18,564 nucleotides of DNA from Desulfobacterales bacterium. GTDB taxonomy: Bacteria > Desulfobacterota > Desulfobacteria > Desulfobacterales > Desulfobacteraceae. Positions 1-18,049 of the stretch are shown here, piece by piece. Both the position numbers and the translations under genes were made by a program. Location: the NCBI GenBank assembly GCA_022361315.1, contig JAKSBB010000717.1, positions 1 through 18,564 on the forward strand, given 5' to 3'. The notes under the pieces are model-generated. The model had not been told where the DNA came from and made no database searches. It saw only the letters and a program-made list of their open reading frames with translations. Within the stretch, counting starts at the first letter, position 1, and each line of letters opens with the position of its first letter.

Positions 1-571
1 CGCATTCAGCGACCTTTTCAAGGGTTTCCCTGGTGTAAACCGTCCCGGTGGGGTTATGGGGGGTGTTTACCACCAACATTTTGGTCTTGGGCGTCAGGGC
101 CTTTTCAAGGGAAGAGATATCCAGCTGAAAATCGTCACCGGCTTTCACAGCGACCGGGACAGCCCCCGCCATGTGGGCGCAGGAAAAATAAGTGGGCCAG
201 CAGGGGGAAGGAATCAGAATTTCGTCACCGGGGTCCAGCAAACTCATGATGGTCGCAAAAACCGCTTCATTGGCTCCTGCCGTCACAATAATTTCGTTAC
301 GAAAATCATATTCCAGTCCGTTATCCTGCCGGAACTTTTCGGCAACGGCCTTGCGAAGCCCCGGAATACCGTAGTTCGAAGTGTAATGGACCTGTCCGTC
401 ATCCAGTGCGGAATGACAGGCGTTTACGATGTTTTCAGGGGTCGTAAAGTCCGGCCTTCCGATTTCCAGATGGATAATCTTCTTTCCGGCAGCCTCGAGC
501 TGGCCGACCTTTTCAAACACTTTACGGATACCTGAAAAAGGGATCAGATCCATGCGTTGCGCCAGTTTCAT
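1..571 (-). CDS. Class I/II aminotransferase (aspartate aminotransferase family), N-terminal part, truncated by the window edge
   Basis: An open frame of about 190 codons reads leftward off the window with no stop. It begins MKLAQRMDLIPFSG and contains the class-I aminotransferase hallmarks in order: the EIGRPDFTTP substrate loop, HYTSNYGIPGLRKAVA, the GANEAV stretch where the PLP phosphate loop lies, and NTPHNPTGTVY with the family NPTG motif. The catalytic lysine would lie beyond the edge. It should be a cytosolic PLP enzyme moving an amino group between an amino acid and a 2-oxo acid. Two ATGs stand in tandem (574 and 571). The AAGGAG ribosome site at 583-578 is 2 nt from the first and 5 nt from the second, so I chose the second. 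It follows the aldehyde oxidoreductase gene by 17 nt and should be its operon partner. The family is certain; the substrate is unknown. Confidence 0.9.
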   Translation of the reverse strand, partial: MKLAQRMDLIPFSGIRKVFEKVGQLEAAGKKIIHLEIGRPDFTTPENIVNACHSALDDGQVHYTSNYGIPGLRKAVAEKFRQDNGLEYDFRNEIIVTAGANEAVFATIMSLLDPGDEILIPSPCWPTYFSCAHMAGAVPVAVKAGDDFQLDISSLEKALTPKTKMLVVNTPHNPTGTVYTRETLEKVAEC

Positions 572-588
572 CATTACTCCTTAAGGTT

Positions 589-2433
589 TTATTTCAAACT
601 GTCAATAAGTTCTGTGAGTCCGAGATCTGTCAGGGTTTCCGGCAGTGGAATTCCCTCTGCAGTCCAACCCATATGGGTGTAATAGTCTTCAAGCATCTCT
701 TTCCAGTGTGCTGAAAATTCATGGCCCGAGGCAGGCCCGTCCACCGGTTTGGACCCATACCGTTTTGACGGCCGTTCCATCTCCTTGGTGAGCCCGTGCC
801 TCAGGTTGAACATGCGAAGCTGGTTCACAACCCTGCGTCCCACTGTGAACACATCTTTCAATGTCAGCTCCCACCCGGTAACGGCATTCAGGCAGGCAAG
901 CTGCAGTTTTGGATGGCAGGCCACAAACCGGCAGGTTCCCATACAATCATCAAAGGGACGTACCCCGTTATAATCGCCGTTCAACTGGCCCACTTCCTTG
1001 GGATCAAAGGGGTCGGTCTGGGGATCCATGTCCACCAGCTGAGGATGAACCCCCACCCAGGTGGACTCAATGGTTGACGTATTACTGGCGCAGGTGTCCA
1101 GTAATTCCGCCCATTTGCCACCCCTGTGATCGTGGCTCCGGGGACTGCTGCCTTTATGTGTGTAGATAGCCATGTCAGCGGCCTCTCCCCCCAGCTTCTG
1201 GCTGGCCACCTTTACCCCCTGGGCCAGAAATTCACCAAAACCGTCCCTGGCTGCGATTTTGCAGAGAAGTTCCCGGACGGCCTCTACATTTCCCCAGGAC
1301 AGATCCAGTCCGTCCAGGTCGGTCTGGCTTAGTATGCCCTTATCGTAACATTCCATTACCCAGCCCACTGTCCAGGAAGCCTCATTACAGTCAAGACCCA
1401 GACGATCCACTTCACGGGCGAGCATCACCACGGCACCCAGTTCCGTATTTCCGATCTGGGGTCCCCAGGCGGCAACCTGTTCGTACTCGGGTTCCTCACC
1501 CACAAACCCCTTATAGGGTCCTTCGGTCACCTCAACCGTTCTGACATGGGCATATTTGCACTTATAGCAGGGTTTTGGACGGTGCTTATAATTTGTGCGC
1601 ATATACTGACCGTTCATGGTGTCATGTTCGGGATAGATATTGGTGGTAAAGTTTTTTACGGGAAGTCCGCCGGTTTCAGCCAAAAATGAAACGCCGCCTG
1701 CGGTGCCCCATTTATAAGTGTGGCCCCATTCCTTAGCGAACTCAAACATCTCTTCATTGGCGGTTTTCAGGGTGGCCGGATCCTCTATGTCAAAATTTAT
1801 GGGCCCCTTGTATGCCACCACGGCTTTAAGATTTTTGGATCCCATGACGGCCCCCAGGCCGTTATGGGCTGCAAAATGGCCCTGATCCCCGCCTATTGAC
1901 GCGTAATGGACCTTGCTCTCACCGGCAGGGCCGATACCGTATATAGAAACCTTTGCCCCTTTGACACCCAGTTCGGCACGTAATTTATCTTCCAGTTCAA
2001 ACAGGTCCAGGCCGGCAAGATGGGTGGCGTCTTTAATCTCTATTTGCCCGTCTTTGATGACCATATAGCTTAGCTGGGGGGCCTTACCCTGGAATATCAG
2101 CCCGTCAAATCCCGAAAATTTCAGATACGCACCGAAATATCCGTTGGCCTGGGAGCATCCGGCAAGGCCGCTCAGGGGCCCCTTGGCAGCCACATTGAAG
2201 GTGCCGGCACCGTAAACACCGGTACCCGCCAGCGGACCTGAGGTCCAAACCATCCTGTTTTCAGGATCGTCCCAGGCAACATCAGCAGGCACTTCATCCC
2301 ACAATATTTTACTCCCAAAGCCCTGGCCACCGACCCACTTGCGAATGAAATCATCACTCAGCTCTTCTACGCTGACGGCAGAACTGCTCAAATCAATCCT
2401 TGCCATCTTTCCCAAATAACCTTTGACCGTCAT
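589..2433 (-). CDS. aor: Tungsten-type aldehyde:ferredoxin oxidoreductase (AOR family)
   Basis: This 614-residue protein has the usual length of the tungstopterin AOR family, whose members oxidise aldehydes to carboxylic acids and reduce ferredoxin. The N-terminal AOR domain (about residues 4-205) is typical: GYLGKMARIDL, the GGQGFGSKILWDEV glycine turn and SGPLAGTGVYGAGTFNV. The pterin-binding pattern DRLGLD is at 343-348. The iron-sulfur region is odd: Cys289 and Cys292 match the first two cluster ligands and Cys501 (DDCMGTCRF) the last, but the third position is His296 (CYKCKYAH) where Cys is usual. A cluster with one His ligand, or a loosened cluster, is possible. The start has AAGGGG 9 nt upstream. 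The gene lies in a run of PLP enzymes, so its substrate is probably an aldehyde made by transamination nearby. The family is clear and the substrate is unknown. Confidence 0.93.
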   Translation of the reverse strand: MTVKGYLGKMARIDLSSSAVSVEELSDDFIRKWVGGQGFGSKILWDEVPADVAWDDPENRMVWTSGPLAGTGVYGAGTFNVAAKGPLSGLAGCSQANGYFGAYLKFSGFDGLIFQGKAPQLSYMVIKDGQIEIKDATHLAGLDLFELEDKLRAELGVKGAKVSIYGIGPAGESKVHYASIGGDQGHFAAHNGLGAVMGSKNLKAVVAYKGPINFDIEDPATLKTANEEMFEFAKEWGHTYKWGTAGGVSFLAETGGLPVKNFTTNIYPEHDTMNGQYMRTNYKHRPKPCYKCKYAHVRTVEVTEGPYKGFVGEEPEYEQVAAWGPQIGNTELGAVVMLAREVDRLGLDCNEASWTVGWVMECYDKGILSQTDLDGLDLSWGNVEAVRELLCKIAARDGFGEFLAQGVKVASQKLGGEAADMAIYTHKGSSPRSHDHRGGKWAELLDTCASNTSTIESTWVGVHPQLVDMDPQTDPFDPKEVGQLNGDYNGVRPFDDCMGTCRFVACHPKLQLACLNAVTGWELTLKDVFTVGRRVVNQLRMFNLRHGLTKEMERPSKRYGSKPVDGPASGHEFSAHWKEMLEDYYTHMGWTAEGIPLPETLTDLGLTELIDSLK

Positions 2434-2475
2434 TTGTCTATCCCCTTGACTGTAAATTAACCCTTAATATTGATA

Positions 2476-2514
2476 GGACAGTTGAAAACATTCTGCATGT
2501 ATCTTCAACTGTCC
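2476..2514 (-). promoter_or_regulatory. Intercistronic stem-loop ahead of the aldehyde oxidoreductase gene
   Basis: The arms GGACAGTTGAA (2476-2486) and TTCAACTGTCC (2504-2514) are perfect 11-bp inverted repeats with a 17-nt loop. They lie in the 105-bp gap between the SelA-like gene and the aldehyde oxidoreductase gene, both read leftward. No U-run follows on the minus strand, so this is not a standard terminator. It could set the relative mRNA level of the two halves of the operon (stability element or attenuator), or be a protein-binding site for a second promoter. The structure is seen; the role is inferred. Confidence 0.55.
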
Positions 2515-2538
2515 CGGATCTTACTTATTGCAATGGCG

Positions 2539-3807
2539 TCATTCCCCGAGGATTAACGCTTTCATGGTATCAATGGACTGGCCGTTTTCAGCCACATACC
2601 GCAACCCGTTGTCAATGGCGTTGACCAGCACATCCAGCCCCCCCATCTTTTCAATCACGTTGGGTTCGGCCTTGAACCGCAGCCAGATACTGGCCCCGGG
2701 CTGTCCCAGGGCATTAACGCTGATCATGCCGTACTCTTTCAGCCAGTACATGCCGATGGCTGCGCTGACCTCGCCCGGACTTATGGGCAGATTATCATTG
2801 GTGCCTCTGATCTCTTTCACCAGTTCATAGGCACTCTCTGCAGTCAGGCTTGCGCCGATACCGGACTTGATCACCTTGTCCTTCCCATAGATTCCGGAAA
2901 GGCGTTCGTACACCTTCACCCCGAAAGCCACTTCATCTTCCAAGGCACGGGGAGTGAACTCTTTCAAGGATGCCCAGATACCGGCAGCCAGGGGAGCCCG
3001 CGCTTCCAATCCAAGTTCGGCCGCCTTGGTATTCACCTGCTCCATGAATTGTTTCTCACCCACCATCAATCCGGCCCGGGGGCCGCTCATCCCGGCTTTA
3101 TCACAGGCGGTAACCCCTAAATTCACACCGGTTTCCATGGTGCCCGGGCCGTTATATATGATCGGGCGGAGCCGGGTGCCGTATGCATCATCAAGCATCA
3201 CCGGCACTCCGACTTTTTTTGCCAACGCAATGGAATCGGTCATGGTATCGACATCAATGACTTCAAGTTCACTTGACACACCTGTGATGACCATAAAACT
3301 GACGATTTCCGAATCCAAGACCTCTGCAACTTCTCGGTATTCATTCACCTGAACCAGCTCTCCGCCGGCCAGCCGAACCCCACGGCCGATGGAAGGATGG
3401 CTTCGTTTTCCCGGTACCAGGCTGATGACCTTGGTACCGGGCCGGACAATGGCGAGGCAGGCGGAGATAATACCGGCCGAACACCGGTTGAAGACAAGCA
3501 CATCATGGTCGGAAGTACCGCCGAAATGGGCCCTTGCCATCACTTCCATTTCATCCCAGAAATAGGCCGGCCCGACCCATTCCTCAGCGTGGTTCAACTT
3601 ATCCCGATCAAGGGGATAGCCGCGGTGCAGGCCGGTAATATTATAAAACGCGTCTGCACCATGGGTATCTCTGCGGCGACGGATCAGTTCCAGCGCATGC
3701 AGTCTTCTTTTGGCCTCTTCAAGGGAACCTTTGATAATCGGTCCCCTGGCAAATCCCACTGTGGGATCAATGGGAAAGCCGTAGGGATCCATTGCTGGCG
3801 AATTCAT
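2539..3807 (-). CDS. SelA/MJ0158-like fold-type I PLP-dependent enzyme
   Basis: This 422-residue protein belongs to the fold-type I PLP enzymes and most resembles the MJ0158/SelA-like branch, which includes selenocysteine synthase relatives and some ammonia lyases. Visible features are an FNRCSAG turn (107-113, likely PLP phosphate region), MLDDAYGTR with Asp206/Asp207 (one should hold the PLP pyridine nitrogen), and ACDKAGMSGPRAG with Lys237 as the likely Schiff-base lysine, aligned with the DK..GGP motif of SelA. The reaction is unknown: lyase, aminotransferase and racemase chemistry are all possible. A TTG at 3828 would extend the frame by 7 codons, but the strong GGAGG sits between it and the ATG at 3807, 9 nt from the latter, so I start at 3807. 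The upstream gene's stop codon lies just before this ribosome site, which suggests coupled translation. Confidence 0.8.
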   Translation of the reverse strand: MNSPAMDPYGFPIDPTVGFARGPIIKGSLEEAKRRLHALELIRRRRDTHGADAFYNITGLHRGYPLDRDKLNHAEEWVGPAYFWDEMEVMARAHFGGTSDHDVLVFNRCSAGIISACLAIVRPGTKVISLVPGKRSHPSIGRGVRLAGGELVQVNEYREVAEVLDSEIVSFMVITGVSSELEVIDVDTMTDSIALAKKVGVPVMLDDAYGTRLRPIIYNGPGTMETGVNLGVTACDKAGMSGPRAGLMVGEKQFMEQVNTKAAELGLEARAPLAAGIWASLKEFTPRALEDEVAFGVKVYERLSGIYGKDKVIKSGIGASLTAESAYELVKEIRGTNDNLPISPGEVSAAIGMYWLKEYGMISVNALGQPGASIWLRFKAEPNVIEKMGGLDVLVNAIDNGLRYVAENGQSIDTMKALILGE

Positions 3808-3821
3808 GGTAGCCTTCCTCC

Positions 3822-4853
3822 TTACCAACCGCGTTCGAGTGCAGGTTGTACAGCATTTTCAACCAGCATGCGGAGGATGGTGATCATGGATTCCTGAACC
3901 TGGGGACGGGTACCGTCGACCCAGGGCTGTTTCATACCGCCTTCCCCCTCAGCACCGGCATACACACAATCCATGCCCATTCTCTTCTCGGTTTCCTCAT
4001 CCTGAAGGACGTTAATGTCCTGACACAGATAGGCCAGACAGGCAGCAATACCATACCCCACCCAGTTGCTCACCGCACCTGCGGCCACCACATCGGTGGT
4101 GACTTCGCACAAGGGACTGCCGCCGCAGGGGCATTTGCACTCCGCCCAGCTGGGCATGGCTTTTTTAAGCTCTTCCGCCACAAGGCCGAATCCGACTTCG
4201 TTGCCGTAGTCACCGATCCCCAGGGTAAAGATGCCCCGCTCCCGGGCCTGTTCCACCAGGTGGTAAGTCAACGCCACGTGCTCGGCTTCCCGCTCATAAC
4301 CGGTCATACTGTGAATGATTCCGTTGGCGTTGGGTCCCAACGATTCTATGCTGATAACCGCAGCCGGCTTGAGCTCATCCAAAAGCTCCAGGGCCTTGTC
4401 AAGCGCCCCCTCATGACCCAGGGGGAAGTTTCTGACCAGGGCTGTGGGGTAGAAACCGTCATAGTCGGCCATCTCTTTTAACTCCGTGGCCGTAATCCCT
4501 GCGGCATCAGAGGCGGCTGCCACCGGTGCCATGTATGGTTCACCGGCCACATAACAGGGGCGCCCCCCCAGTCCCAGTTTGATCGCCCTTGCAAGACTTA
4601 CCGCACCCAATGGTCCGTCGGTTTCACCGGCAGGACGCCAGGGCGCCTTACCGGAACCTGTGGCAATCAGGACATATTCACCGGGTTTCACATGTTCTTT
4701 GAGCTTTTCAGCAGCCAACAGGGTCAAGGGACGGCCCTGTACTTTGCGCGCCGCCTCATAAAGGGGCAATATCACACCCCGGCTTTCTATGCCGGGACGT
4801 TTCATTTCAATTGTTACCAATCGGTCAACGTGTTCTCCAAATATTTCAGGCAC
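3822..4853 (-). CDS. DUF4392 protein (D-glutamate cyclase-like C-terminal domain family)
   Basis: This 343-residue protein is one DUF4392 domain, the fold of the C-terminal part of vertebrate D-glutamate cyclase (D-Glu to 5-oxo-D-proline). Family signatures are IATGSGKAPWRPAGETDGP (63-81), SIESLGPNANGIIHSMTG (168-185), IGDYGNEVGFG (213-223) and AVSNWVGYG (260-268). Between the last two lies a cysteine group, Cys239, Cys241, Cys243 and Cys249, that looks able to bind a metal. The start is GTG with GGAG 7 nt upstream. It stands 54 nt after the class-III aminotransferase gene and 14 nt before the SelA-like gene, so it is an operon member. Cyclase or lactam chemistry on an acidic amino compound would fit, but substrates of bacterial members are mostly unassigned. 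Family assignment is firm; function is inferred. Confidence 0.82.
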   Translation of the reverse strand: MPEIFGEHVDRLVTIEMKRPGIESRGVILPLYEAARKVQGRPLTLLAAEKLKEHVKPGEYVLIATGSGKAPWRPAGETDGPLGAVSLARAIKLGLGGRPCYVAGEPYMAPVAAASDAAGITATELKEMADYDGFYPTALVRNFPLGHEGALDKALELLDELKPAAVISIESLGPNANGIIHSMTGYEREAEHVALTYHLVEQARERGIFTLGIGDYGNEVGFGLVAEELKKAMPSWAECKCPCGGSPLCEVTTDVVAAGAVSNWVGYGIAACLAYLCQDINVLQDEETEKRMGMDCVYAGAEGEGGMKQPWVDGTRPQVQESMITILRMLVENAVQPALERGW

Positions 4854-4881
4854 GATTTTTCTCCAATCTGAGTTAGTATGT

Positions 4882-4896
4882 CATTGCATCGCAATG
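4882..4896 (-). repeat. Small intercistronic hairpin
   Basis: CATTGC and GCAATG are perfect 6-bp inverted repeats around a 3-nt loop. They lie in the 54-bp gap between the class-III aminotransferase and the DUF4392 gene. There is no U-run beside them. The hairpin may affect message processing or be chance. Confidence 0.3.
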
Positions 4897-4907
4897 CATG
4901 GCGGTTT

Positions 4908-6215
4908 TTACAGCTGTGCATCCACTTCCCCGAGAATTTCGTCGATAATGGCCAGGCCTTTATCAAGATCTTCCCGGGTTGCAATGAAAGGAGGGCCTAT
5001 GAACAGACGATTGGCAAGCACATTGGTGGAAAGCCCTTTTTCCATCATTCGCCTTGCAAGCGTACTTGAAATATCAGGGTTCAGCATTTCTCTGGTGTTC
5101 CGGTCCTGAACCAACTCAAGACAGAAAAAGCTGCCGGTACCCCGCACATCACCCACGCATTTGTGTTTTGCCTTAAACGCTTCCAGCTTCGGCCTGAGGT
5201 ATTCACCGTTGGCGGCGCTGGCTTCAATTAACTTATCTTCTTTATAAAGGTCCAGTACGGATTTGGCAGTGGCACAGGCAAGGGGATGGCTGTTAAAGGT
5301 CAAGCCTCCGTACAACATTTCCTTGCCCAGTTTTTCCATGATACGATCACTGATGGCCACGGCACCCAAAGGCACATAACCGCAGGTCAATCCTTTTGCC
5401 ATGGTCATCATATCCGGCACAACACCTTCATAATGCTCGATTGCAAACCATTTGCCCGTGCGGCCGCAGCCGACCATGACTTCGTCGGTAATGAGCAGAA
5501 TCTCGTGCTTGTCACAAATCTCTCTCAGGCGCTGAAAATATCCTTCGGGGGGAGCAAAAAAACCACCGGCACCGGTCATGGGTTCAATCAGTATTGCGGC
5601 GACATTCTGGGGACCTTCGTATCCGATGATTTCCTCAACGTGATCTGCACAACGAAGGTTACAGGACGGGTATTCCAACCCGAAGGAACATCTGTAACAA
5701 TACGGATCAAAGAAAAAACGGACGCCGGGGATACCGGGTTCAACGGGGAGCCGTCTCGGATCTCCGGACATACTGATGGCCCCGTAAGTCGCACCGTGAT
5801 ATGCACGGTATTTGGTCAGTACCTTGGACTTTCCCGTATATGCCCTGGCAAATTTCAATGCATTTTCATTGGCATCCGCCCCCCCCAGGGTAAAAAAGAA
5901 TTTATTCAGATCCCCGGGGGTCAGCTCCGCCAGATCTTTTGCCAGTTCCACCCTGGCAGAACAGGCAATTCCAGGATGGATAAAGCACTGCTTCTCCGCC
6001 TGTTTTTTGATTCCCTCAATTACCTTGGGATGCTGGTGCCCCACGTTCATATTCACCAGGGAAGAACTGAAATCCAAGTATTTGTTTCCGTCGGCATCCC
6101 AGTAGTACATGCCTTCACTCTTGTCGACTACAAGCGGATCCAGTTTTTCCTGCACGGACCAGCTATGGACAACATGCCTGCGATCCAGTTCCTTAATCGT
6201 ATTTTTGTCCAACAT
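4908..6215 (-). CDS. Class III aminotransferase (omega-amino acid/taurine-type), first gene of the catabolic operon
   Basis: This 435-residue, full-length class-III (omega) aminotransferase would convert a terminal amine or amino acid to an aldehyde or keto acid with pyruvate or 2-oxoglutarate as acceptor. Seen in order: YYWDADGNKYLDF (37-49), SLVNMNVGHQHPKV (52-65), the PLP phosphate loop GGADANENA (111-119), LITDEVMVGCGRTGKW with Asp244 at the pyridine nitrogen, and MAKGLT with the Schiff-base Lys274. An insert at 170-191 carries four cysteines (173, 176, 185, 189; spacing C-x2-C-x8-C-x3-C). The overall look is close to taurine/beta-alanine-type enzymes, but no sulfonate gene is nearby, so I do not name the substrate. 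GTG (6218) or ATG (6215) could start it; AGAGG lies 7 nt from the ATG, which I chose. A promoter and operator-like site lie upstream. Confidence 0.9.
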   Translation of the reverse strand: MLDKNTIKELDRRHVVHSWSVQEKLDPLVVDKSEGMYYWDADGNKYLDFSSSLVNMNVGHQHPKVIEGIKKQAEKQCFIHPGIACSARVELAKDLAELTPGDLNKFFFTLGGADANENALKFARAYTGKSKVLTKYRAYHGATYGAISMSGDPRRLPVEPGIPGVRFFFDPYCYRCSFGLEYPSCNLRCADHVEEIIGYEGPQNVAAILIEPMTGAGGFFAPPEGYFQRLREICDKHEILLITDEVMVGCGRTGKWFAIEHYEGVVPDMMTMAKGLTCGYVPLGAVAISDRIMEKLGKEMLYGGLTFNSHPLACATAKSVLDLYKEDKLIEASAANGEYLRPKLEAFKAKHKCVGDVRGTGSFFCLELVQDRNTREMLNPDISSTLARRMMEKGLSTNVLANRLFIGPPFIATREDLDKGLAIIDEILGEVDAQL

Positions 6216-6274
6216 CACTTCACCTCTATCATATAACGAATTAGATTAACGGGTATTAACACTCACCCCAGCTC

Positions 6275-6464: not shown

Positions 6465-7157
6465 TTAATGGGCGGATTCCTGCATATCACCGGAGGTATT
6501 GCTGACAGCCATTTTTATGGCCGTTTGCTTACTTTCTTTCAAATGAATGATGAGAAGCGCATCGGCCAGATTCCCTTCACCGGCTTTAAGCGCCTTGAGC
6601 ATGGATTCATGCTGCTCTATGAGATAATCCATTTTAATGGAGTTTTTGCCCTGTAAGGCAATGAGGCATATGACATCAACAAGATCACCATAGGTATCCT
6701 GCATACGCTTATTGTCACACATTTCAGCCAACTTGTAATGGAAGTCACCATTGGCCTTAAGATATGCAGGCACGTCTTTTTCCGAACGGGCTTTTCTCTG
6801 CTCCCGGATAGAGTTCTCCAGGCCCGTGAAATCGTATTGAGACGGTGTGCTCGCTATTTTTTTAAAGAAGTATCTTTCAAGAATTTCTCTTAGTTCGAAA
6901 AGTTCGTTCACATCTTTTTCCGAAATCAACCGAACCATGATGCCGCGCCGGGGCAGGAACTCCACGATCCCCTTGCTCGCCAATTCTAAAAGCGCCTCCC
7001 GAACCGGGGTTCGGGAAATACCCATCTCTTTGGCCAGAGACATTTCCGTGTAAAGTTCTCCGGCCGCGAGTTCACCGTTCAATATAGACGTGCGTAATTT
7101 TTCATTCGCAATTTTGGCTAGACTTTTAGGCTGCGAAATTGTATTTAGACTCTCCAT
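6465..7157 (-). CDS. GntR family transcriptional regulator, FadR/FCD subfamily
   Basis: This 230-residue cytosolic DNA-binding regulator has an N-terminal winged helix-turn-helix (about residues 12-76) with the recognition segment GISRTPVREALLELASKG and the wing LPRRGIMVR. An all-helical FCD effector domain follows (about 85-215). His140, His183 and His205 sit where FCD domains hold a metal; the Asp or Asn normally four residues before the first His is Asn136. Members bind small carboxylates or amino acids and usually act as repressors. The ribosome site is weak (AGGT close to the ATG), as is common for self-limiting regulators. The gene stands between the catabolic operon and the divergent carrier, and two strong palindromes overlap its own promoter. 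It should control all three units. The ligand is unknown. Confidence 0.92.
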   Translation of the reverse strand: MESLNTISQPKSLAKIANEKLRTSILNGELAAGELYTEMSLAKEMGISRTPVREALLELASKGIVEFLPRRGIMVRLISEKDVNELFELREILERYFFKKIASTPSQYDFTGLENSIREQRKARSEKDVPAYLKANGDFHYKLAEMCDNKRMQDTYGDLVDVICLIALQGKNSIKMDYLIEQHESMLKALKAGEGNLADALLIIHLKESKQTAIKMAVSNTSGDMQESAH

Positions 7158-7542: not shown

Positions 7543-8493
7543 ATGCTTATCCATACCAGCGTATCGGTATTCAATACCATCGTTCAACTATTTGTCATAT
7601 CCATTGCTGCGGGGCTTCTGGTTCGCAAAAAAATGATCCTGGCCAACCAGATTCAGGCCTTATCAACCATTACTGTCAATATCTTTCTTCCCTGCCTGAT
7701 AGTAACAAAAATAATTGCGGGCTTTCATCCGGAGCAACTTGAAAACTGGTGGATTCTGCCCCTGTCTGGATTCCTGATATCCGTCACCGGCCTCTTGATT
7801 AGCAACCTCTTTTTCCGGCTCCGGCCTGAAAAGAGGCCAGCCATGGTTGTTGCGAGCCTGCCCAACGCCATATATGTTGTCCTGCCCATAGGCCAGGTGC
7901 TATTCGCAGACGATTTTGATTCATTTGCATTATATTGTTTTCTTTTTGTTCTGGGCCTAAACCCGGTGATGTGGAGTATCGGCAAGGTGATGCTTGCGGG
8001 CAAAACTCAACAAAGGATTCATTGGAAAGATTTTTTTACCCCTCCCCTTCTGGCGATTTTTATCTCTGTGTTCATGGCATTCACAGGCGCATCAAAATTT
8101 ATACCTGCCGCAATAACCGCACCGCTGGACCTCCTTGGCCAGGCAACTGTTCCGGTATCCATTTTTGTTCTTGGTGCTGTTTTGGGTTCACTATCCATTG
8201 AAAACCTGCCCCCTCTAAAAGATATCCTGATTGTCGGAGCAGTGAAATACCTTGTGGTACCATTCATTGTTTTCACCGTTCTGTACCATGGCCAGCTATA
8301 TTCGACGATGCCGCTTCTATGCGCGCTTCTGATAATCGAGGCCGCCGCACCACCCGCTGCCAATTTGGTTATAATCACAGAGAATTACTGCGGTGATACC
8401 CAGGCGGTGAGCAGTATGATGCTGGTACAATATCCAATCTGTTTATTTTTTATGCCGCTATGGATAGCAGCATGGCAATACCAGGTATTTTGA
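7543..8493 (+). CDS. AEC family (auxin efflux carrier-like) membrane transporter
   Basis: This 316-residue inner-membrane protein has about ten hydrophobic segments in two sets of five (roughly 8-27, 37-57, 70-90, 102-122, 128-148, 165-182, 198-217, 226-247, 254-273, 288-311), the layout of AEC carriers. Family marks are the broken helices with polar/Pro residues: SLPNAIYVVLPIG (105-117), GLNPVMW (138-144) and EAAAPPAANLVI (266-277). Bacterial relatives move malate, malonate and other small carboxylates or amino acids. It starts at ATG 7543 with AAGGGGG 4 nt upstream; the few hydrophilic residues before the first helix fit. Divergent from gntR across shared palindromes, it probably imports the substrate of, or exports a product from, the minus-strand catabolic operon. 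The substrate cannot be read from the sequence. Confidence 0.88.
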   Translation: MLIHTSVSVFNTIVQLFVISIAAGLLVRKKMILANQIQALSTITVNIFLPCLIVTKIIAGFHPEQLENWWILPLSGFLISVTGLLISNLFFRLRPEKRPAMVVASLPNAIYVVLPIGQVLFADDFDSFALYCFLFVLGLNPVMWSIGKVMLAGKTQQRIHWKDFFTPPLLAIFISVFMAFTGASKFIPAAITAPLDLLGQATVPVSIFVLGAVLGSLSIENLPPLKDILIVGAVKYLVVPFIVFTVLYHGQLYSTMPLLCALLIIEAAAPPAANLVIITENYCGDTQAVSSMMLVQYPICLFFMPLWIAAWQYQVF

Positions 8494-11362: not shown

Positions 11363-12046
11363 ATGCCGGGAATTGATACGGTAAAGCGGTACGAGACACC
11401 CGAGGGGGTGGTGATCCGGCTGAAGGTTGCAGGCCCGGTATCCAGGGCCTGCGCCTGGTTGGTTGACCTGTCCATCAAAGTGGGCTTGTGCCTGGTGATC
11501 GCCATCATATTAGGTATTCTCGGTCATGCAGGGCAGGGGATTATCCTGATCTTTATCTTTTTGATTGAATGGTTCTATCCCGTAATTTTCGAGCTGTACT
11601 GGGGGGCGACCCCTGGTAAAAAAAGCATGAATCTGATGGTGGTCCAGGACAATTGTACCCCGGTCTCCTTTACCGCCTCTGTATTGCGCAACCTGCTGCG
11701 GGCCGCCGACTTTTTCCCCTTCTTCTACGGGGCCGGCCTGGTCACCATGGTATGCAACAAAGATTTCAAACGTCTGGGGGATATTGCCGCCGGTACCCTG
11801 GTGGTGTACGACACCCCGGGACGTACGGTGAATAAAATCGCTGAGGCTCAGCCCAAACAGCCGCCTGCGGACTTGCGGGTCAACGAGCAGCGGACCATTC
11901 TGGATTTCTCGGAGCGCAGCATATATCTGTCAAAAGAACGGCGTATTGAGCTTGCCGAAATCCTCCGCAACGTGACCGGCAAAACCGGTGAGGCAGCGGT
12001 GAATGAACTATACGCCTACGCATCCTGGCTGTTCAAAGGGAAATAG
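11363..12046 (+). CDS. RDD family integral membrane protein
   Basis: This 227-residue protein has an RDD domain in its first two thirds: SRACAWLVDLSIK with the conserved Arg28 and Asp35, two hydrophobic segments (about 38-54 and 57-77), TPGKKSMNLMVV (83-94) and LRAADFFPFFYG with Asp116, then LGDIAAGTLVV. The cytosolic tail (about 155-227) is charged and includes SKERRIELAEILRNVTG. RDD proteins occur as small membrane partners of SpoIIM and MoxR genes; their activity is mostly unknown. The start ATG has GGACGGG just upstream, 12 nt after the preceding stop. It precedes the SpoIIM gene by 27 nt. Confidence 0.85.
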   Translation: MPGIDTVKRYETPEGVVIRLKVAGPVSRACAWLVDLSIKVGLCLVIAIILGILGHAGQGIILIFIFLIEWFYPVIFELYWGATPGKKSMNLMVVQDNCTPVSFTASVLRNLLRAADFFPFFYGAGLVTMVCNKDFKRLGDIAAGTLVVYDTPGRTVNKIAEAQPKQPPADLRVNEQRTILDFSERSIYLSKERRIELAEILRNVTGKTGEAAVNELYAYASWLFKGK

Positions 12047-12073
12047 GGTAAGGAAAAAGGGCAATGAAATAAA

Positions 12074-13060
12074 GTGCGACAGGAAGATTTTGAAAATAAA
12101 TACAAAGCCCTTTGGGACAGGTATGACCGTATTCTGGCCGGTCTTGACAACAAGGATGTTGGTCCGGGCAATGCCCCGGCCCCGGACGGTCTGCCTTCCC
12201 TGTACAGAAAGGTCTGCCACCACTATGCCGTGGCCCTGAGCCGGCAGTACAGCCCGGCTCTGGTCTCATCACTTCACAGCCGCATCGTGTCAGGGCATCA
12301 GAAAATTTATAAAAAACGCAGTCATCACATGGCTGCAGTGGCCCGGTTTTTCATCACCACCTTTCCCGTGACCTTCAGGGCCAATTTCACTTTTTTTATA
12401 CTGGCCCTTGTCCTGTTTGCCCTTCCCTTTATCGGAACGGGCCTTTCAACCTATAAGAATCCGGATGTCATTTATGCCATCATGGACGAGAGCCAGGTTT
12501 CAAACTTTGAATATATGTACGACCCGGCCAACAGACACCTTGGAAGATCCCCGGACCAGGCGGACGACAGAAGTGTGATGATGTTCGGATTTTACATTAA
12601 AAACAACATATCCATTGGTTTCCGCACCTTTGCCACCGGTGCCCTGGCCGGCCTGGGCACCGTCTTCTCCCTGGTGTACAACGGGGTAATCTTAGGCGGG
12701 GTCTCCGGCCATGTCACCCGCCTTGGGTTTAATCAAACCTTCTGGCCGTTTGTGTCCGGCCACGGGGCCTTTGAACTCACCGCCATTATTATCTGCGGTA
12801 TGGCAGGCCTTATCCTTGCCCGGGCCATTGTGGCCCCGGGGAACTTAAAACGGATTCATGCCCTTAAAAAGGCAGCACCCGGGGCGCTGACACTTGTGCT
12901 GGGCGCAGCAGCCATGCTGTTCATCGCCGCCATTATCGAAGCCTTCTGGTCCCCGTCTGCCGTGGCTGTCCAGGCAAAATACACAGCGGCCGCTGTGTTC
13001 TGGGTCATGGTAATCCTCTATCTGGCCCTTGCCGGCAGGAGGCGGCCGGCGTGGATTTAA
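12074..13060 (+). CDS. SpoIIM family (stage II sporulation protein M-like) membrane protein
   Basis: This 328-residue protein has a charged cytosolic N-terminus (1-90) and about six hydrophobic segments. SpoIIM signatures are NNISIGFRTFATGALAGLGT (177-196), VYNGVILGGVSGH (201-213) and the HGAFELTAIIICGMAGLILA helix from His230. In endospore formers SpoIIM helps engulfment, but homologues are widespread in non-spore-formers within MoxR operons, so the name does not imply sporulation. The start is GTG at 12074: an in-frame TGA lies at 12065-12067, and no ATG is available. An AAGGG is about 12 nt upstream, rather far, and a two-codon frame ATG AAA TAA (12064-12072) sits between. The stop overlaps the next gene. 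Confidence 0.87.
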   Translation: MRQEDFENKYKALWDRYDRILAGLDNKDVGPGNAPAPDGLPSLYRKVCHHYAVALSRQYSPALVSSLHSRIVSGHQKIYKKRSHHMAAVARFFITTFPVTFRANFTFFILALVLFALPFIGTGLSTYKNPDVIYAIMDESQVSNFEYMYDPANRHLGRSPDQADDRSVMMFGFYIKNNISIGFRTFATGALAGLGTVFSLVYNGVILGGVSGHVTRLGFNQTFWPFVSGHGAFELTAIIICGMAGLILARAIVAPGNLKRIHALKKAAPGALTLVLGAAAMLFIAAIIEAFWSPSAVAVQAKYTAAAVFWVMVILYLALAGRRRPAWI

Positions 13061-14550
13061 ATACGGTCAATATCGAAATCAGACCCAGGCCCCCCTATGA
13101 AGGGCTTGACCTGGGATTTATCATGGCATCCCGCTGGTTCCTGCGGCTGTGGGGGCTCTGGGCCCTGACCGCCCTGCCCGTCTGTTGTATTATATTGATC
13201 GTATTCCATAAGTCACCGGCGTGGGGCGCCCTGATTATCTGGTGGCTCAAACCTGTGTTTGAAACCCCATTGCTCTACTGGATCAGCCGGAAAGTGTTTA
13301 ATGAGGATCCCCGGATCCGCCCCATGCTGAAAAACATGACCGGCATCCTGAAGCCCCAGCTTATCCGGCGCCTGACCACCCGGCGCCTTTCTCCATCCAG
13401 ATCTTTTTTTATGCCGGTGATGCTCCTTGAAAACATGCGGGGAAGGGATTATGTAACCCGTACGGACATTCTCGGCCGGAACCAGTCTGCAGCCCTGGTG
13501 CTCACCTTTATCTGTCTACTTTTTGAAATGCTCCTGTATTTTTCGGTCATTGGGTTATGCCAGATGCTGATCCCGGAAACCTTTGAGGTTTCAATATTTG
13601 ATTCGTTTTTTGGAGACAGTCTCACCTCGTGGCTGGCTTCTAATATGCTTGGGATTATTTCCATGTCAGTGGTTGCCCCCTACTATATCTGCGCCGGCTT
13701 TGCCCTCTACATTTCCCGGCGAACCGCACTGGAAGCCTGGGATATCGAAATGAACTTCAAACGTCTGATCAAACGAAAGCAACAAAACAAAGGCTCAGGC
13801 GGCGCTGCAATCCTGCTGATCTGCGGTATGATACTGATGTCCGGTGCAGGCCAGCTTGAAGCAGCGGAACGCCACACCTCCCAATCAGAGGCAGCACAGA
13901 CAGCCCGGGGCCAGGCCAAACAGATCATTGCAGAGGTGCTGGCCAACGCGGATTTTGGCCGTGAAGAGACCGTGACCTATTGGGAATTGAAAGATTTTTT
14001 TAGGGACCGTGAAAGAAAGAACTATCAGCTACCGGATTTTTTCCGGGCCCTCGCGGAATTCTTCGCCATGGTGGCAAAACCCTTGATCTGGGCGGCCTGC
14101 GGTACACTCGCGGTCTTCCTGATCTATTACCTGTCAACATATACGGGAACCGGCAACGGACTCCCGGCCATCCGGAAAACAAAGCCGCCCCGGGAATTGT
14201 TCGGCCTGAAAATTACCGCTGAATCCCTGCCCGCAGACATCATGGCCGAGATCGACAAGCTTCTTGAAGCCAAAGATTTCAGGGCGGCCCTGAGCTTATT
14301 ATACAGGGGCACCCTGTACCGGCTTGTGTTTGAAACGCTGATCGACATCCCCGCCAGCGCCACTGAAGGGGAATGTATCCGGCTGGTTGAAAACCACACA
14401 GATGCCGAAACCGCCGTTTTTTTCAAAACCCTGACCGGGGTATGGCTGAAGCTGGCCTACGGCCATATTCAACCGGATCTCAACACCGTTGAATCCCTGT
14501 GCAACACATGGCAAAGGTTATACGGAGGAGCGGCTAAAGCGAATGGATAA
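13051..14550 (+). CDS. DUF4129 protein with N-terminal multi-pass membrane region
   Basis: This 499-residue protein has an N-terminal membrane part (hydrophobic segments near 30-52, 60-75, 146-172, 197-220) joined by KRLIKRKQQNKGSGG to a signal-peptide-like segment (250-272, AILLICGMILMSGAG). A non-membrane stretch of about 70 residues follows, then another helix (343-362) and a C-terminal DUF4129 domain (about 400-495, ALSLLYRGTLYRLVFE, VWLKLAYG). The layout suggests the 273-340 loop is outside the cytoplasm and DUF4129 inside. It may be an ancient joining of two proteins. The start is GTG, overlapping the SpoIIM stop by 10 nt, with AGGAGG 8 nt upstream. It overlaps the next gene by 8 nt, so translation is coupled. 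DUF4129 often accompanies transglutaminase-like or MoxR/DUF58 genes; its role is unknown. Confidence 0.82.
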   Translation: MDLNTVNIEIRPRPPYEGLDLGFIMASRWFLRLWGLWALTALPVCCIILIVFHKSPAWGALIIWWLKPVFETPLLYWISRKVFNEDPRIRPMLKNMTGILKPQLIRRLTTRRLSPSRSFFMPVMLLENMRGRDYVTRTDILGRNQSAALVLTFICLLFEMLLYFSVIGLCQMLIPETFEVSIFDSFFGDSLTSWLASNMLGIISMSVVAPYYICAGFALYISRRTALEAWDIEMNFKRLIKRKQQNKGSGGAAILLICGMILMSGAGQLEAAERHTSQSEAAQTARGQAKQIIAEVLANADFGREETVTYWELKDFFRDRERKNYQLPDFFRALAEFFAMVAKPLIWAACGTLAVFLIYYLSTYTGTGNGLPAIRKTKPPRELFGLKITAESLPADIMAEIDKLLEAKDFRAALSLLYRGTLYRLVFETLIDIPASATEGECIRLVENHTDAETAVFFKTLTGVWLKLAYGHIQPDLNTVESLCNTWQRLYGGAAKANG

Positions 14551-15754
14551 AAAGGCCCTTCAACCCCTCGGTGTTACGGTCCTTGTGATCTGTGTCGCCA
14601 CCGGTCTTTTTTTCCTCCTGTTTGAAAAAGTGGAAAAAACCGTATACGCGCCGGGCTCTGCCGAGGCCCGGAAAAATCCCTTTTTAGCCGCCATCAGATG
14701 CCTGGATACCGCCGGAATTCCGGCCGCAGGCTCTCAACAGCGTGAATTTTTAACCCGGCTGCCCTCTGCCCGGGATATGATTTTCATCCACCGGCCGGGC
14801 TCCAATTATCCGGAAAGCCGTATCCAAAACATTGCTGCCTGGGTGGAGGATGGCGGCACCCTTGTGATCCACCACAACTTTTTCGGACAGGCCCCCCATC
14901 CCCTCCTGGACGCCCTGGGAATTCAATTCCGGACCCAGGATAAAAAAAAGGATGAAGAGGAGACTACGAAGAAAGCCACCGCCCCGGATGGTCCGTCCGG
15001 TGACACGGAAGCCTGTGACTGCGACGAAGAAGAAACCTTGGAAGATATGTTCAGGGGAGAGATAATGACCCTGGCCTTTGATTCAGGCCGGGCACTTCCC
15101 CCGCTGGCAAAATCATCCACCGCTCAAAAGCTGTTCCAGGGGAAATACGGTGCCCATGTCCTGCAGCAGTCCGTGGGCGAAGGCCGGCTGATTGTACTGA
15201 GCGATGACCGGTTGCTGACCAATGAGCAGATCGGAAAGAACGACCACGCCTTTTTCCTGCTCACCCTCAGTGAGGGCAGGGATAAGGTCTGGATATTGTA
15301 CAACAGTGTCATGCCTTCCATTTTTGCCCTTGTTATGGAAAAAATGCCGCTGATGGTGTTTTCTTTTTTCGTCCTGATTCTCTTTGCCTTTCTATACCTG
15401 ACCCGGCGGATCGGCCCCATTTATCCGCCCAAAGATTATTCCGGCCGTAACATTATGGAGCACCTGCTGGCAGCCGGGCATTTTGTGAGAAAAAACGATA
15501 AAAACCACAGGCAGCTCTATAGATCCAGGAAGGTCCTTGAAAAGAAAATTGTTGCCCGATATCTGTATTTTGCAAAGAAACCCAGGCCGGATCAGATCCG
15601 GCTGATATCAAAATGGACACAAATGACGGCAGCGGATGTCCGGACTGCAATGGAGCATCCCGCCAACACCCCCCAGGAATATATCAGGGCCACCATGCTG
15701 ATGAAAAAAATCCGGGATGCCATTGCTGCCAATCACAAACAAACGGAGAAATAA
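14543..15754 (+). CDS. DUF4350 membrane protein
   Basis: This 403-residue protein has one helix at 9-27, an extracytoplasmic DUF4350 domain (about 40-250) and a second helix (268-288) followed by a basic cytosolic tail with YSGRNIMEHLLAAGHFVRK. The DUF4350 domain shows NPFLAAIRCLDTAGIP, WVEDGGTLVIHHN and GRLIVLSDDRLLTN; the fold is like glutamine-amidotransferase-type domains but lacks an obvious catalytic Cys in the visible motifs. An acidic insert at 133-173 contains DACDCDEEE-like residues (CDC at 158-160). A long alternative start (TTG 14489) would lie deep inside the previous gene; ATG 14543 overlaps that gene by 8 nt, with GGAGGAG 12 nt upstream, and I chose it. It probably forms part of a membrane complex with DUF4129 and DUF58. 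Confidence 0.82.
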   Translation: MDKKALQPLGVTVLVICVATGLFFLLFEKVEKTVYAPGSAEARKNPFLAAIRCLDTAGIPAAGSQQREFLTRLPSARDMIFIHRPGSNYPESRIQNIAAWVEDGGTLVIHHNFFGQAPHPLLDALGIQFRTQDKKKDEEETTKKATAPDGPSGDTEACDCDEEETLEDMFRGEIMTLAFDSGRALPPLAKSSTAQKLFQGKYGAHVLQQSVGEGRLIVLSDDRLLTNEQIGKNDHAFFLLTLSEGRDKVWILYNSVMPSIFALVMEKMPLMVFSFFVLILFAFLYLTRRIGPIYPPKDYSGRNIMEHLLAAGHFVRKNDKNHRQLYRSRKVLEKKIVARYLYFAKKPRPDQIRLISKWTQMTAADVRTAMEHPANTPQEYIRATMLMKKIRDAIAANHKQTEK

Positions 15755-15757
15755 TCA

Positions 15758-16738
15758 TTGGAAAACGTATCAGACGCACCAGACGCTTCAGAATTAGTTG
15801 CCCGGCTCGGACGTGTTGAGGCTGAGATTAATCGTACGGTGATCGGCCAGAACAAGGTTGTCAGGGAAGTGATGATTGCCATGCTGGCCGGTGGCCACGC
15901 CATTGTGGAAGGGGTGCCGGGCTTAGGTAAAACGCTTCTGGTCAAAAGCATTGCCGCAGCGGTAAACGCCCGCTTCAGACGGGTACAGTTTACACCGGAT
16001 CTCATGCCTTCGGATATCAGCGGCCACGAGATGTTTGAAATGAAAACCAATACCTTCAAGGTCCGCCAGGGGCCGGTGTTTACCAATTTCCTTCTCGCCG
16101 ACGAGATCAACCGGGCCCCGGCAAAGACCCAGTCCGCACTCCTGGAGGTCATGCAGGAGCACCAGGTTACCATTGAGGGGCGGTCCTACCTGCTCAAACC
16201 GCCCTTCCTGGTCCTGGCCACCCAGAACCCCATTGAGCATGAGGGAACCTACCCCCTTCCCCAGGCACAGCTGGACCGGTTTTTATTGAAAATATTTATT
16301 GATTACCCGGATCTGGAAAGTGAAACCGCCATCGTCAAAACAATTACCAACAGGGCCATTGGGGATAAACTGGATGTATCCGGGATAAAGAAGATGTTGG
16401 ATATTGATTCGGTACTGGCCCTGCAGAAACTCACCGCCACCCTGAAAACAGACACCGCCATCGTTGATTATGCCGTGAAGATCGCCAGAGCCACCCGGGA
16501 ATGGTCCGGCATTGAAATCGGAGCCGGTCCCCGGGGCTCCCTTGCCCTGCTGCGGGCCGGCAGAGGCAATGCGTTGTTAAACGGGAACACCTTTGTCACC
16601 CCGGATGATATCAAATCCATTGCACCGGCCGTATTGCGCCACAGAATAAAACTGACCACAGACATGGAAATCGAAGGGTATCACCCCGATGATGTATTAA
16701 AGGATATTCTGGATACCGTGGAAGCCCCCCGGGTATAA
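15758..16738 (+). CDS. MoxR family AAA+ ATPase
   Basis: This 326-residue cytosolic AAA+ protein is the length expected for MoxR. It has Walker A GVPGLGKT (52-59), Walker B LLADEIN with Asp115/Glu116, sensor 1 in LATQNP (Asn157), a likely arginine finger Arg174 in QLDRF, and sensor 2 Arg259 in AGPRGSLALL. MoxR proteins form hexamers and act as chaperones for complexes that contain vWA proteins. Here the partner is the DUF58 protein encoded 6 nt downstream. The start is TTG (15758) with GGAG 9 nt upstream, and only 3 nt separate it from the DUF4350 stop. No other start codon stands near. All catalytic residues are present, so it should be active. Confidence 0.95.
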   Translation: MENVSDAPDASELVARLGRVEAEINRTVIGQNKVVREVMIAMLAGGHAIVEGVPGLGKTLLVKSIAAAVNARFRRVQFTPDLMPSDISGHEMFEMKTNTFKVRQGPVFTNFLLADEINRAPAKTQSALLEVMQEHQVTIEGRSYLLKPPFLVLATQNPIEHEGTYPLPQAQLDRFLLKIFIDYPDLESETAIVKTITNRAIGDKLDVSGIKKMLDIDSVLALQKLTATLKTDTAIVDYAVKIARATREWSGIEIGAGPRGSLALLRAGRGNALLNGNTFVTPDDIKSIAPAVLRHRIKLTTDMEIEGYHPDDVLKDILDTVEAPRV

Positions 16739-16744
16739 AATCCC

Positions 16745-18049
16745 ATGAGACCCTCAGGCATCAGCATTGTTATTCTCACCCTCATGACTGTTTTGGCAGG
16801 AGTTGCCGCATTTTCAGAAGCGGTGGCCGCGGCATGGAAGATAGCAGCCGCAGCCGGCACAGGGATCTTCTGTCTGGACTTATATCTCGGGCTCAGGTTG
16901 CCGGACCTGGAACTGAAAAGAACGGTAAAACACTCCCTGCCCGTGGGAACCTGGTCCGATGTGCACCTGGAATTCAAAAACCTTGAAAACCGGACGATCC
17001 GCATCAAGGTCCACGACCACCATCCCGGGGCATGCGACTGCCGCGATCTCCCCCTGGAACTGACCCTGCCCCCGGGAAAGCGCTTAAAAACCCACTATGA
17101 ACTTCGCCCCTATCAAAAGGGGGATATGACCTTCGGCAGGGTGGATCTGCTGATCCGTTCCCCTCTGGCCCTGTGGTGGAAAAAAACAAGCGCCGGCCGC
17201 TCCGAACCGGTCAAGGTGCTCCCGAATTTCAGACAGATCAAGAATTATACGCTGCTGGCCGGGGACAACCGCCTGAGTCAGATCGGCATCCTCAAAAAAC
17301 GGCGCCGTGGAGAGGGAAATGATTTCCATCAATTGCGGGACTACCGGGCCGGTGACCCCTTCAGGCAAATCGACTGGAACAAAACCTCCAGATATCTCAA
17401 GCTGATCACCAAAGAGTACCAGGACGAACGGGATCAGCAGATCCTTTTCCTCCTGGACTGCGGACGGCGCATGCGCCATGCCGATGACAGGGACACCCAT
17501 TTTGACCAGGCACTTAATGCCATGCTCCTGCTCTGCCATGTGGCCTTGAAACAGGAAGATGCAGTGGGATTCATGGCCTTCGGCGGGATTGACAAATGGT
17601 TCCCTCCCAAAAAGAATACCGGCACCATCCGGCATATCCTCAATCAGGTCTACACCCTCCACCCCACCACCGATGCTGCGGATTACCTGACCGCGGCGAA
17701 AAACCTGACGGCCCTTCAGAAAAAACGGTCTCTTGTGATCATCCTCACCAATACCCGGGATGAAGATTATGATGACCTGCTGGGGGCCGTAAAAATACTA
17801 AGAAAAAAACACCTGGTGGTGCTGGCCGATCTGCGGGAAAAAATAATAGACGCCACCATGGCCCAACAGGTGACGAACCTTGATTCTGCCGTACTCTACC
17901 ATGCTGTGACCGACTACACGGAAAGGCAGAACAAGAACCACAAAGCCCTGTCCCGTCACGGGGTTATTTCCATCAACACCCTGGCCGAAGCCCTGCCCGC
18001 ACGGCTGGTTAATGAATACCTGAATGTGAAGGCTTCGGGCAAACTTTAA
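16745..18049 (+). CDS. DUF58 (vWA-like) protein, MoxR partner
   Basis: This 434-residue protein has two N-terminal helices (7-24, 31-48), a beta-rich region outside or at the membrane, and the DUF58 signature GNDFHQLRDYRAGDP followed by QIDW (191-211). It then has a vWA-like domain (about 230-390). The metal-binding motif of vWA domains (DxSxS) is replaced by DCGRRM at 238-243, so classical metal binding is doubtful; changed MIDAS motifs are frequent in DUF58. Such proteins are encoded next to MoxR ATPases and are taken as their substrates or adaptors. The start ATG has no clear ribosome site and lies 6 nt after the MoxR stop, pointing to coupled translation. It is the last gene of the operon, and its stop codon overlaps the stop of the convergent flavin enzyme gene. 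Confidence 0.92.
   Translation: MRPSGISIVILTLMTVLAGVAAFSEAVAAAWKIAAAAGTGIFCLDLYLGLRLPDLELKRTVKHSLPVGTWSDVHLEFKNLENRTIRIKVHDHHPGACDCRDLPLELTLPPGKRLKTHYELRPYQKGDMTFGRVDLLIRSPLALWWKKTSAGRSEPVKVLPNFRQIKNYTLLAGDNRLSQIGILKKRRRGEGNDFHQLRDYRAGDPFRQIDWNKTSRYLKLITKEYQDERDQQILFLLDCGRRMRHADDRDTHFDQALNAMLLLCHVALKQEDAVGFMAFGGIDKWFPPKKNTGTIRHILNQVYTLHPTTDAADYLTAAKNLTALQKKRSLVIILTNTRDEDYDDLLGAVKILRKKHLVVLADLREKIIDATMAQQVTNLDSAVLYHAVTDYTERQNKNHKALSRHGVISINTLAEALPARLVNEYLNVKASGKL

Follow-up and report, generated by a model that had tools for sequence, protein, structure and literature searches.

An aldehyde:ferredoxin oxidoreductase-based form of a recurrent, uncharacterized catabolic module in a Desulfobacterales bacterium

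To what end does a Desulfobacterales bacterium, an anaerobe with sulfate reducers among its relatives, keep a class-III aminotransferase (AT3), a DUF4392 protein, a SelA-like pyridoxal phosphate (PLP) enzyme, a tungsten-type aldehyde:ferredoxin oxidoreductase (AOR) and a class I/II aminotransferase (AT1) side by side on one strand? The five genes lie at one end of an 18,564-nt stretch of contig JAKSBB010000717.1, hereafter the window, and no earlier description of the set was found in the literature searched, outside which lie most subscription journals. Comparison with other genomes led us to conclude that the set is a real, rare variant of a widespread uncharacterized module: it is the AOR-based, anaerobic form of a recurrent catabolic module built from known enzyme families. 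On balance, we favor reading it as a catabolic operon for a small amino compound that runs this module anaerobically. The genes and signals concerned are as follows.

2..574, minus strand: AT1, N-terminal 191 aa, cut by the window edge (PF00155, 116 bits)
589..2433, minus strand: tungsten-type AOR, 614 aa (PF02730 and PF01314)
2539..3807 (longest open reading frame to 3828), minus strand: SelA-like, MJ0158-type fold-I PLP enzyme, 422 aa (TIGR03576 the best family)
3822..4853, minus strand: DUF4392 (GLUCM-like_C, D-glutamate-cyclase-like) protein, 343 aa (PF14336)
4908..6218, minus strand: AT3, 436 aa, PRK06062 subfamily (PF00202, NF004718)
6317-6290, minus strand: promoter-like site TTGACA-16-TATATT with TG, 11 of 12 consensus positions (consensus match only)
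6440-6408, minus strand: terminator-like hairpin after the GntR gene (consensus match only)
6465..7157, minus strand: GntR/FCD regulator, the probable regulator of the set (PF00392 and PF07729)

The SelA-like protein matched PF00155 and, below threshold, UPF0425_C in Pfam; TIGR03576 is its best family, although its score of 242 bits stays below the curated cut-off of 304.45, and 2aeu is its best solved relative. With the MJ0158/TIGR03576/UPF0425 PLP enzymes it shares the fold and the PLP lysine (K244 in the 429-aa numbering), which is kept in 71 of 71 aligned rows; it differs from them in its sub-cut-off score and perhaps also in its link to DUF4392. An assignment to true bacterial SelA, the selenocysteine synthase, was rejected. 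PF03841 and TIGR00474, which we take to be the profiles of that L-seryl-tRNA(Sec) selenium transferase, were absent among the families matched at E <= 0.001 (two in Pfam, seven in NCBIfam).

To what extent do these genes travel together? When species genomes were searched with an alignment built from 31 SelA-like proteins, 71 loci were obtained, mostly from Alpha- and Betaproteobacteria, together with five from Gammaproteobacteria, three from Actinomycetota, two from Desulfosarcina/Deltaproteobacteria metagenome-assembled genomes (MAGs) and one Rokubacterial fragment. One locus (L071) had no match to the SelA-like profile and was dropped, and 70 were counted. DUF4392 is encoded within 1.5 kb on the same strand in 58 of these 70 loci from other genomes, downstream only in 42, on both sides in 15 and upstream only in one; in two of the 12 loci that are without it (L002 and L065), the contig ends at the SelA-like gene. 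Eight of the 120 DUF4392 proteins listed (of 440) share an equally long longest contig with one of 83 SelA-like proteins. All eight fall in the top 35, and shifted controls gave a mean of 0.8 and a maximum of 5. Five pattern matches for the pair were obtained in viral contigs, none of which was confirmed.

Further neighbors were counted within 8 kb of the 70 SelA-like genes, using profiles made from the neighbor clusters. Aldehyde dehydrogenase (ALDH) was found in 60 loci, a LysR regulator in 51, AT3 in 35 and a HIBADH-type dehydrogenase in 31, followed by DMGDH-type FAD/GcvT proteins (30), a class-V PLP enzyme (28) and an MttB-type methyltransferase (15). The ALDH gene is on the same strand within 3 kb in 59 of the 60 ALDH loci, and at least one of AT3 and HIBADH accompanies it in 55 (AT3 only in 24, HIBADH only in 21, both in 10, neither in five). 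With internal distance bins around the SelA-like gene, not random loci, as the control, matches per 100 kb at 0-3, 3-6 and 6-10 kb were 15.3, 0.5 and 0.2 for ALDH, 7.8, 0.3 and 1.1 for AT3, and 5.5, 2.4 and 0 for HIBADH; DMGDH (1.5, 8.1 and 5.0) and MttB (1.0, 0.5 and 4.8) lie further out. An aldehyde-oxidizing enzyme is thus the regular partner of the SelA-like/DUF4392 pair, and the window and its closest relative, the Desulfosarcina MAG contig L001, carry AOR in ALDH's place. Roseobacter and rhizobial clusters share with the window the pair, aldehyde oxidation and AT3 or a HIBADH-type dehydrogenase, but have an NAD-type ALDH and LysR where the window has AOR and a GntR/FCD regulator. Since the pair recurs and an aldehyde-oxidizing gene is nearly always close to it, the original prediction from the window alone, that the class-III aminotransferase makes an aldehyde which AOR oxidizes, appears reasonable.

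The SelA-like gene is also present on 18 plasmid records, 14 of them from Bradyrhizobium or Sinorhizobium and 12 of these 14 with Glycine as source; the soybean rhizobia records are H22-H33, H35 and H36. Two rhizobial plasmids carry LysR and a row annotated as NAD(P)-oxidoreductase (HIBADH), ALDH, glutamate cyclase (DUF4392), selenocysteine synthase (SelA), glutamate cyclase (DUF4392) and amino-acid ABC transporter, and a third that was opened has the same layout except that hypothetical proteins are annotated in the SelA-like region. This layout of a transporter plus enzymes suggests uptake plus catabolism, and the substrate may be a soybean compound. On one S. fredii plasmid, the SelA-like gene lies a few kb from a gene annotated as a type-III effector.

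The other member of the pair, DUF4392, scores 175.1 bits against a Pfam threshold of 27.9. It is 27% identical to its solved relative TON_0340 and keeps all six metal ligands of that protein (E77, D79, E170, D215, E219 and D313); the same six are present in 26 of 26 alignment rows and in 92 of 92 locus rows, some of the latter being one gene fetched twice. Whereas TON_0340 and most rows have Gly at position 216, the window protein has Tyr216, in the motif GDYGNE, and its clade has Tyr or Phe, so that the pocket differs. Tyr/Phe216 was tried as a mark of SelA-linked DUF4392 proteins and rejected, as SelA-linked proteobacterial rows carry Gly.

What takes the place of DUF4392 in loci that are without it gives a hint about the reaction. 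Pfam-confirmed HyuA and HyuB (hydantoinase/oxoprolinase) are encoded within 8 kb in L015, L022, L058, L069 and L070, which in the stretches fetched amounts to 5 of the 12 loci without DUF4392 versus 0 of the 58 with it (Fisher p 6.5e-5, ignoring kinship). The HyuA/HyuB loci belong to two clades of the SelA-like tree, L006/L015/L022/L069 and L058/L028/L070, and thus reflect about two events. The presence of HyuA/HyuB where DUF4392 is missing points to a lactam-type step, and together with the six kept metal ligands it lends support to such a step as the original prediction had sketched it. In a Sinorhizobium meliloti stretch that was retrieved through its DUF4392 gene and has no SelA-like gene (L072), DUF4392 and HyuA/HyuB occur together.

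The same replacement, in five loci and two clades, could also speak for a strict D-glutamate/5-oxoproline route, in which DUF4392 would be a true D-glutamate cyclase (or work in reverse), the SelA-like protein a racemase, lyase or aminotransferase, and AT3 and AOR would feed in from a reduced C5 precursor. This route is also favored by the minimal form of the locus seen in Bordetella (L039), where LysR is accompanied by the SelA-like protein, DUF4392 and a TctC-type binding protein only. However, many HyuA/HyuB proteins have another substrate than 5-oxoproline, and the Tyr or Phe at position 216 sets the pocket of the window clade apart from that of most DUF4392 proteins. A mouse DUF4392-containing protein is described as a D-glutamate cyclase, but that protein has a further domain, DUF1445, and the activity is reported for the purified protein, not for DUF4392 alone (PMC5339696). 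An archaeal stand-alone DUF4392 protein is described as a weak Mn-dependent phosphatase (PMC5132392). The D-glutamate cyclase link of the window protein would come from homology to the second domain of the mouse enzyme, and we consider the strict route unlikely.

DUF4392 genes were also seen in other company. Tct (tripartite tricarboxylate) transporter genes repeatedly adjoin them (L039, 11293-13319; L072 and L073, near 12000), with no other enzyme gene annotated in the DUF4392/Tct row of a Devosia stretch, and this recurrence suggests that DUF4392 acts on an imported carboxylate. Genomes G416 and G452 were examined as further carriers of the set and rejected: their DUF4392 genes stand beside transport genes (by eye of TRAP/TAXI and branched-chain ABC type). 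A 456-479 aa protein that is AtuA/DUF1446-like by eye is also adjacent there (L079, 8797-14218; L080, 2782-10117), possibly another partnership of DUF4392.

The identity of AT3 raises the possibility of a better known substrate. Its match to NF004718 is above the cut-off (528 versus 472 bits), and its best solved relative is the taurine:2-oxoglutarate aminotransferase 6jix (346 bits versus 278 for the next), a member of the same NF004718/PRK06062 subfamily with which it aligns over nearly the full length. The plasmid protein most similar to it (50%, Deinococcus) lies, by annotation, between a Zn-dependent hydrolase/PucR regulator and a methylmalonate-semialdehyde dehydrogenase, and a Moraxella relative also adjoins a dehydrogenase of that kind; this context may reflect pyrimidine or beta-amino-acid breakdown. 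A taurine, beta-alanine or beta-aminoisobutyrate operon would accommodate these relatives, with AT3 yielding sulfoacetaldehyde or malonate semialdehyde for AOR to oxidize and the SelA-like and DUF4392 proteins serving another pathway. However, no taurine-specific partner genes were recognized in the window, and in L001 the genes have remained clustered although their order has changed. In other lineages, the module is accompanied by AT3s of other groups (22-28% identity between groups); this suggests that the pair takes part in the same pathway as AT3, and an operon for taurine or a beta-amino acid seems to us quite improbable. One such enzyme, the sponge AT3 of L022, is glutamate-1-semialdehyde-aminomutase-like by eye, not by profile. 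For AT1, the NCBIfam matches shown were all far below their cut-offs.

Do the five genes act as one unit? The original prediction described five genes on one strand with small gaps behind a good promoter, and the open reading frames and the Pfam and NCBIfam families agree with this arrangement. The longest SelA-like reading frame (2539-3828) shares 7 nt with DUF4392; in the database the protein (P0121) has 422 aa, which places the start at 3807 and leaves a 14-nt gap, and the remaining gaps are 54 nt (AT3-DUF4392), 105 nt (SelA-AOR) and 14 nt (AOR-AT1), giving a range of 14-105 nt. The promoter-like site, about 70 nt upstream of AT3, is a putative operon promoter by its consensus match, and the hairpin separates it from the upstream GntR/FCD regulator. 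Since the 1.7-kb region holds six such sites versus 4.2 (standard deviation 2.1) in shuffles, the promoter claim rests on the score of this single site and not on the count.

In L001, four of the five genes and GntR stay together in a changed order, with identities to the window of 87% for AT3, 92% for DUF4392, 70% for the SelA-like protein, 67% for AOR and 65% for GntR; a class I/II aminotransferase was not found in this contig. The 105-nt gap ahead of AOR, the position of the L001 AOR on the other strand and the many contexts of AOR relatives (a match at E <= 1e-60 in 253 of 389 genomes of the order) would be consistent with two unrelated adjacent sub-operons, AT3-DUF4392-SelA and AOR-AT1, with AOR serving general aldehyde oxidation. 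Yet a 67% identical AOR stands by the same AT3-DUF4392-SelA set in L001 despite the different order, and ALDH is close to the pair in most other loci, so that we regard such a division as very unlikely. The unevenness of the identities between window 589-6218 and L001 1639-10097, higher for DUF4392 and AT3 than for the SelA-like protein and AOR, hints at exchange of part of the operon.

The AOR itself aligns over its full length with its best solved relative, 1aor (323.7 bits), and its AFOR_N and AFOR_C domains, which 1aor-type enzymes share, span the whole protein. It differs from them in the first cluster motif (C289, C292, H296 and C501), where His replaces the third Cys of CxxCxxxC, intact in 1aor. 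We take the four Cys of 1aor to be [4Fe-4S] ligands, of which the window AOR would be without the third. The replacement is a subfamily trait: all 12 distinct relatives with at least 38% identity have His at this position and all 20 at 31-35% have Cys, the His type being seen in the window, L001, L086-L094, L116 and L120. To our knowledge, no AOR with a ligand change of this kind has been described.

How could these enzymes work together? What is seen at the sequence level is the families, the intact PLP lysine and metal ligands, the neighborhood of the pair, the nearby ALDH, its swap for AOR and the HyuA/HyuB replacement; from this we infer every reaction, their order and a single pathway for all five genes. 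AT3 would transaminate an omega-amine, R-CH2-NH2, with 2-oxoglutarate or pyruvate as the amino acceptor, and AOR would oxidize the resulting aldehyde to R-COOH with reduction of ferredoxin, a step for which aerobic relatives would use the NAD-type ALDH. Both steps are proposed on the basis of the chemistry of these families and of the place of AOR, which corresponds to that of ALDH in the relatives. The acid is probably an amino diacid able to form a 5-oxoproline-type lactam; it would be handled by the SelA-like PLP enzyme and the metal-dependent DUF4392 protein and led to central metabolism, as the neighborhood and the HyuAB replacement suggest, and the truncated second aminotransferase would finish the route or recycle nitrogen. 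The original prediction had gone further in a speculative scheme with racemase or lyase steps on an acidic amino acid and amino recycling by the second aminotransferase; nothing in this analysis fixes a substrate, a racemase or lyase role for the SelA-like enzyme, or the recycling role of the truncated aminotransferase.

A wider scheme is conceivable, although we hold it to be doubtful. It would be a widespread pathway for an omega-amino acid, with transamination, oxidation by ALDH or the anaerobic AOR, and delivery of a lactam-forming diacid to the MJ0158-type enzyme and DUF4392 (or hydantoinase/oxoprolinase). In marine and some anaerobic members, with N-methylated or quaternary substrates, demethylation would come first, via a non-pyrrolysine MttB and, in aerobes, enzymes of FAD/GcvT type. 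The N-methyl idea derives from MttB in L001 and from MttB and DMGDH in mostly marine clusters. The L001 protein has no in-frame stop over 494 aa and scores 455 bits with TIGR02369 (cut-off 525); no MttB or DMGDH is encoded in the window. AT3 and DMGDH occur together in 26 loci, AT3 alone in nine, DMGDH alone in four and neither in 31 (Fisher p 1.4e-7, without correction for kinship). The candidate substrates weighed on general chemical grounds, none of which was settled on, were trimethyllysine, beta-alanine betaine, carnitine, 4-hydroxythreonine, 4-substituted glutamates, taurine, ornithine and lysine.

Several observations weigh against reading the set as an anaerobic form of a common module. 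The neighbor profiles catch any member of the large ALDH, AT3 and HIBADH families; mutual exclusion of AT3 and HIBADH, likely from the counts, was not supported on the tree; and AT3 and the demethylation genes change together in about 5 to 0 independent tree pairs, but with a median p of 0.0625. AOR is near the pair only in L001 (1 of 71 loci) and in the window, and in L001 AOR and the MttB-type protein are on the strand opposite the other genes. AT3, AOR and ALDH are all absent from the 10 kb preceding the SelA-like gene of the next closest locus, L002 (SelA-like protein 54%), whose contig ends 0.3 kb after that gene. Relatives of the window AOR in G416 and G530 adjoin other genes (by eye CoA-transferase and peptide transport), so that this type of AOR is not specific to the pathway. 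Among the six AOR-relative stretches whose context was examined (G450, G416, G530, G641, G689 and G653), none has SelA-like or DUF4392 genes near AOR, the G450 contig being only 3.2 kb long. The SelA-like gene is present in 2 of 395 sampled genomes of the phylum, those of L001 and L002 themselves, and three of the 389 genomes sampled from the order carry DUF4392 (E <= 1e-30), the L001 genome and two that are without an intact SelA-like gene; G416 has a SelA-like remnant (G416:C2, 30527-31430; L131) that is without its middle part and partner genes. Among sequenced genomes of the phylum the set is thus rare, although proteins with 65-76% identity are present in the database. Of the conserved neighborhood that the original prediction proposed to look for, the SelA-like/DUF4392 pair recurs, whereas the trio with AOR was found, besides the window, in L001 alone among the 71 loci.

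Two other regions of the window were noted. An AEC-type membrane transport protein (7543-8493), divergent from GntR and without a match in L001, is a possible transporter for the pathway. Genes for RDD, SpoIIM-like, DUF4350, MoxR-type AAA and DUF58 proteins form a row at 11363-18049, an ordinary-looking MoxR/DUF58 cluster.

Taken together, our results show that two families without a settled role, the MJ0158-type PLP enzymes and DUF4392, are regular neighbors across phyla, in the company of uptake and aldehyde-oxidation genes, and that the substrate of the pair is thereby findable in cultured rhizobia and roseobacters. If the wider, doubtful scheme should hold, bacterial MJ0158-type enzymes would gain their first function and stand-alone DUF4392 proteins their true substrate. 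The window illustrates how an anaerobe may run the same route via a ferredoxin-linked tungsten enzyme, conserving reducing power.

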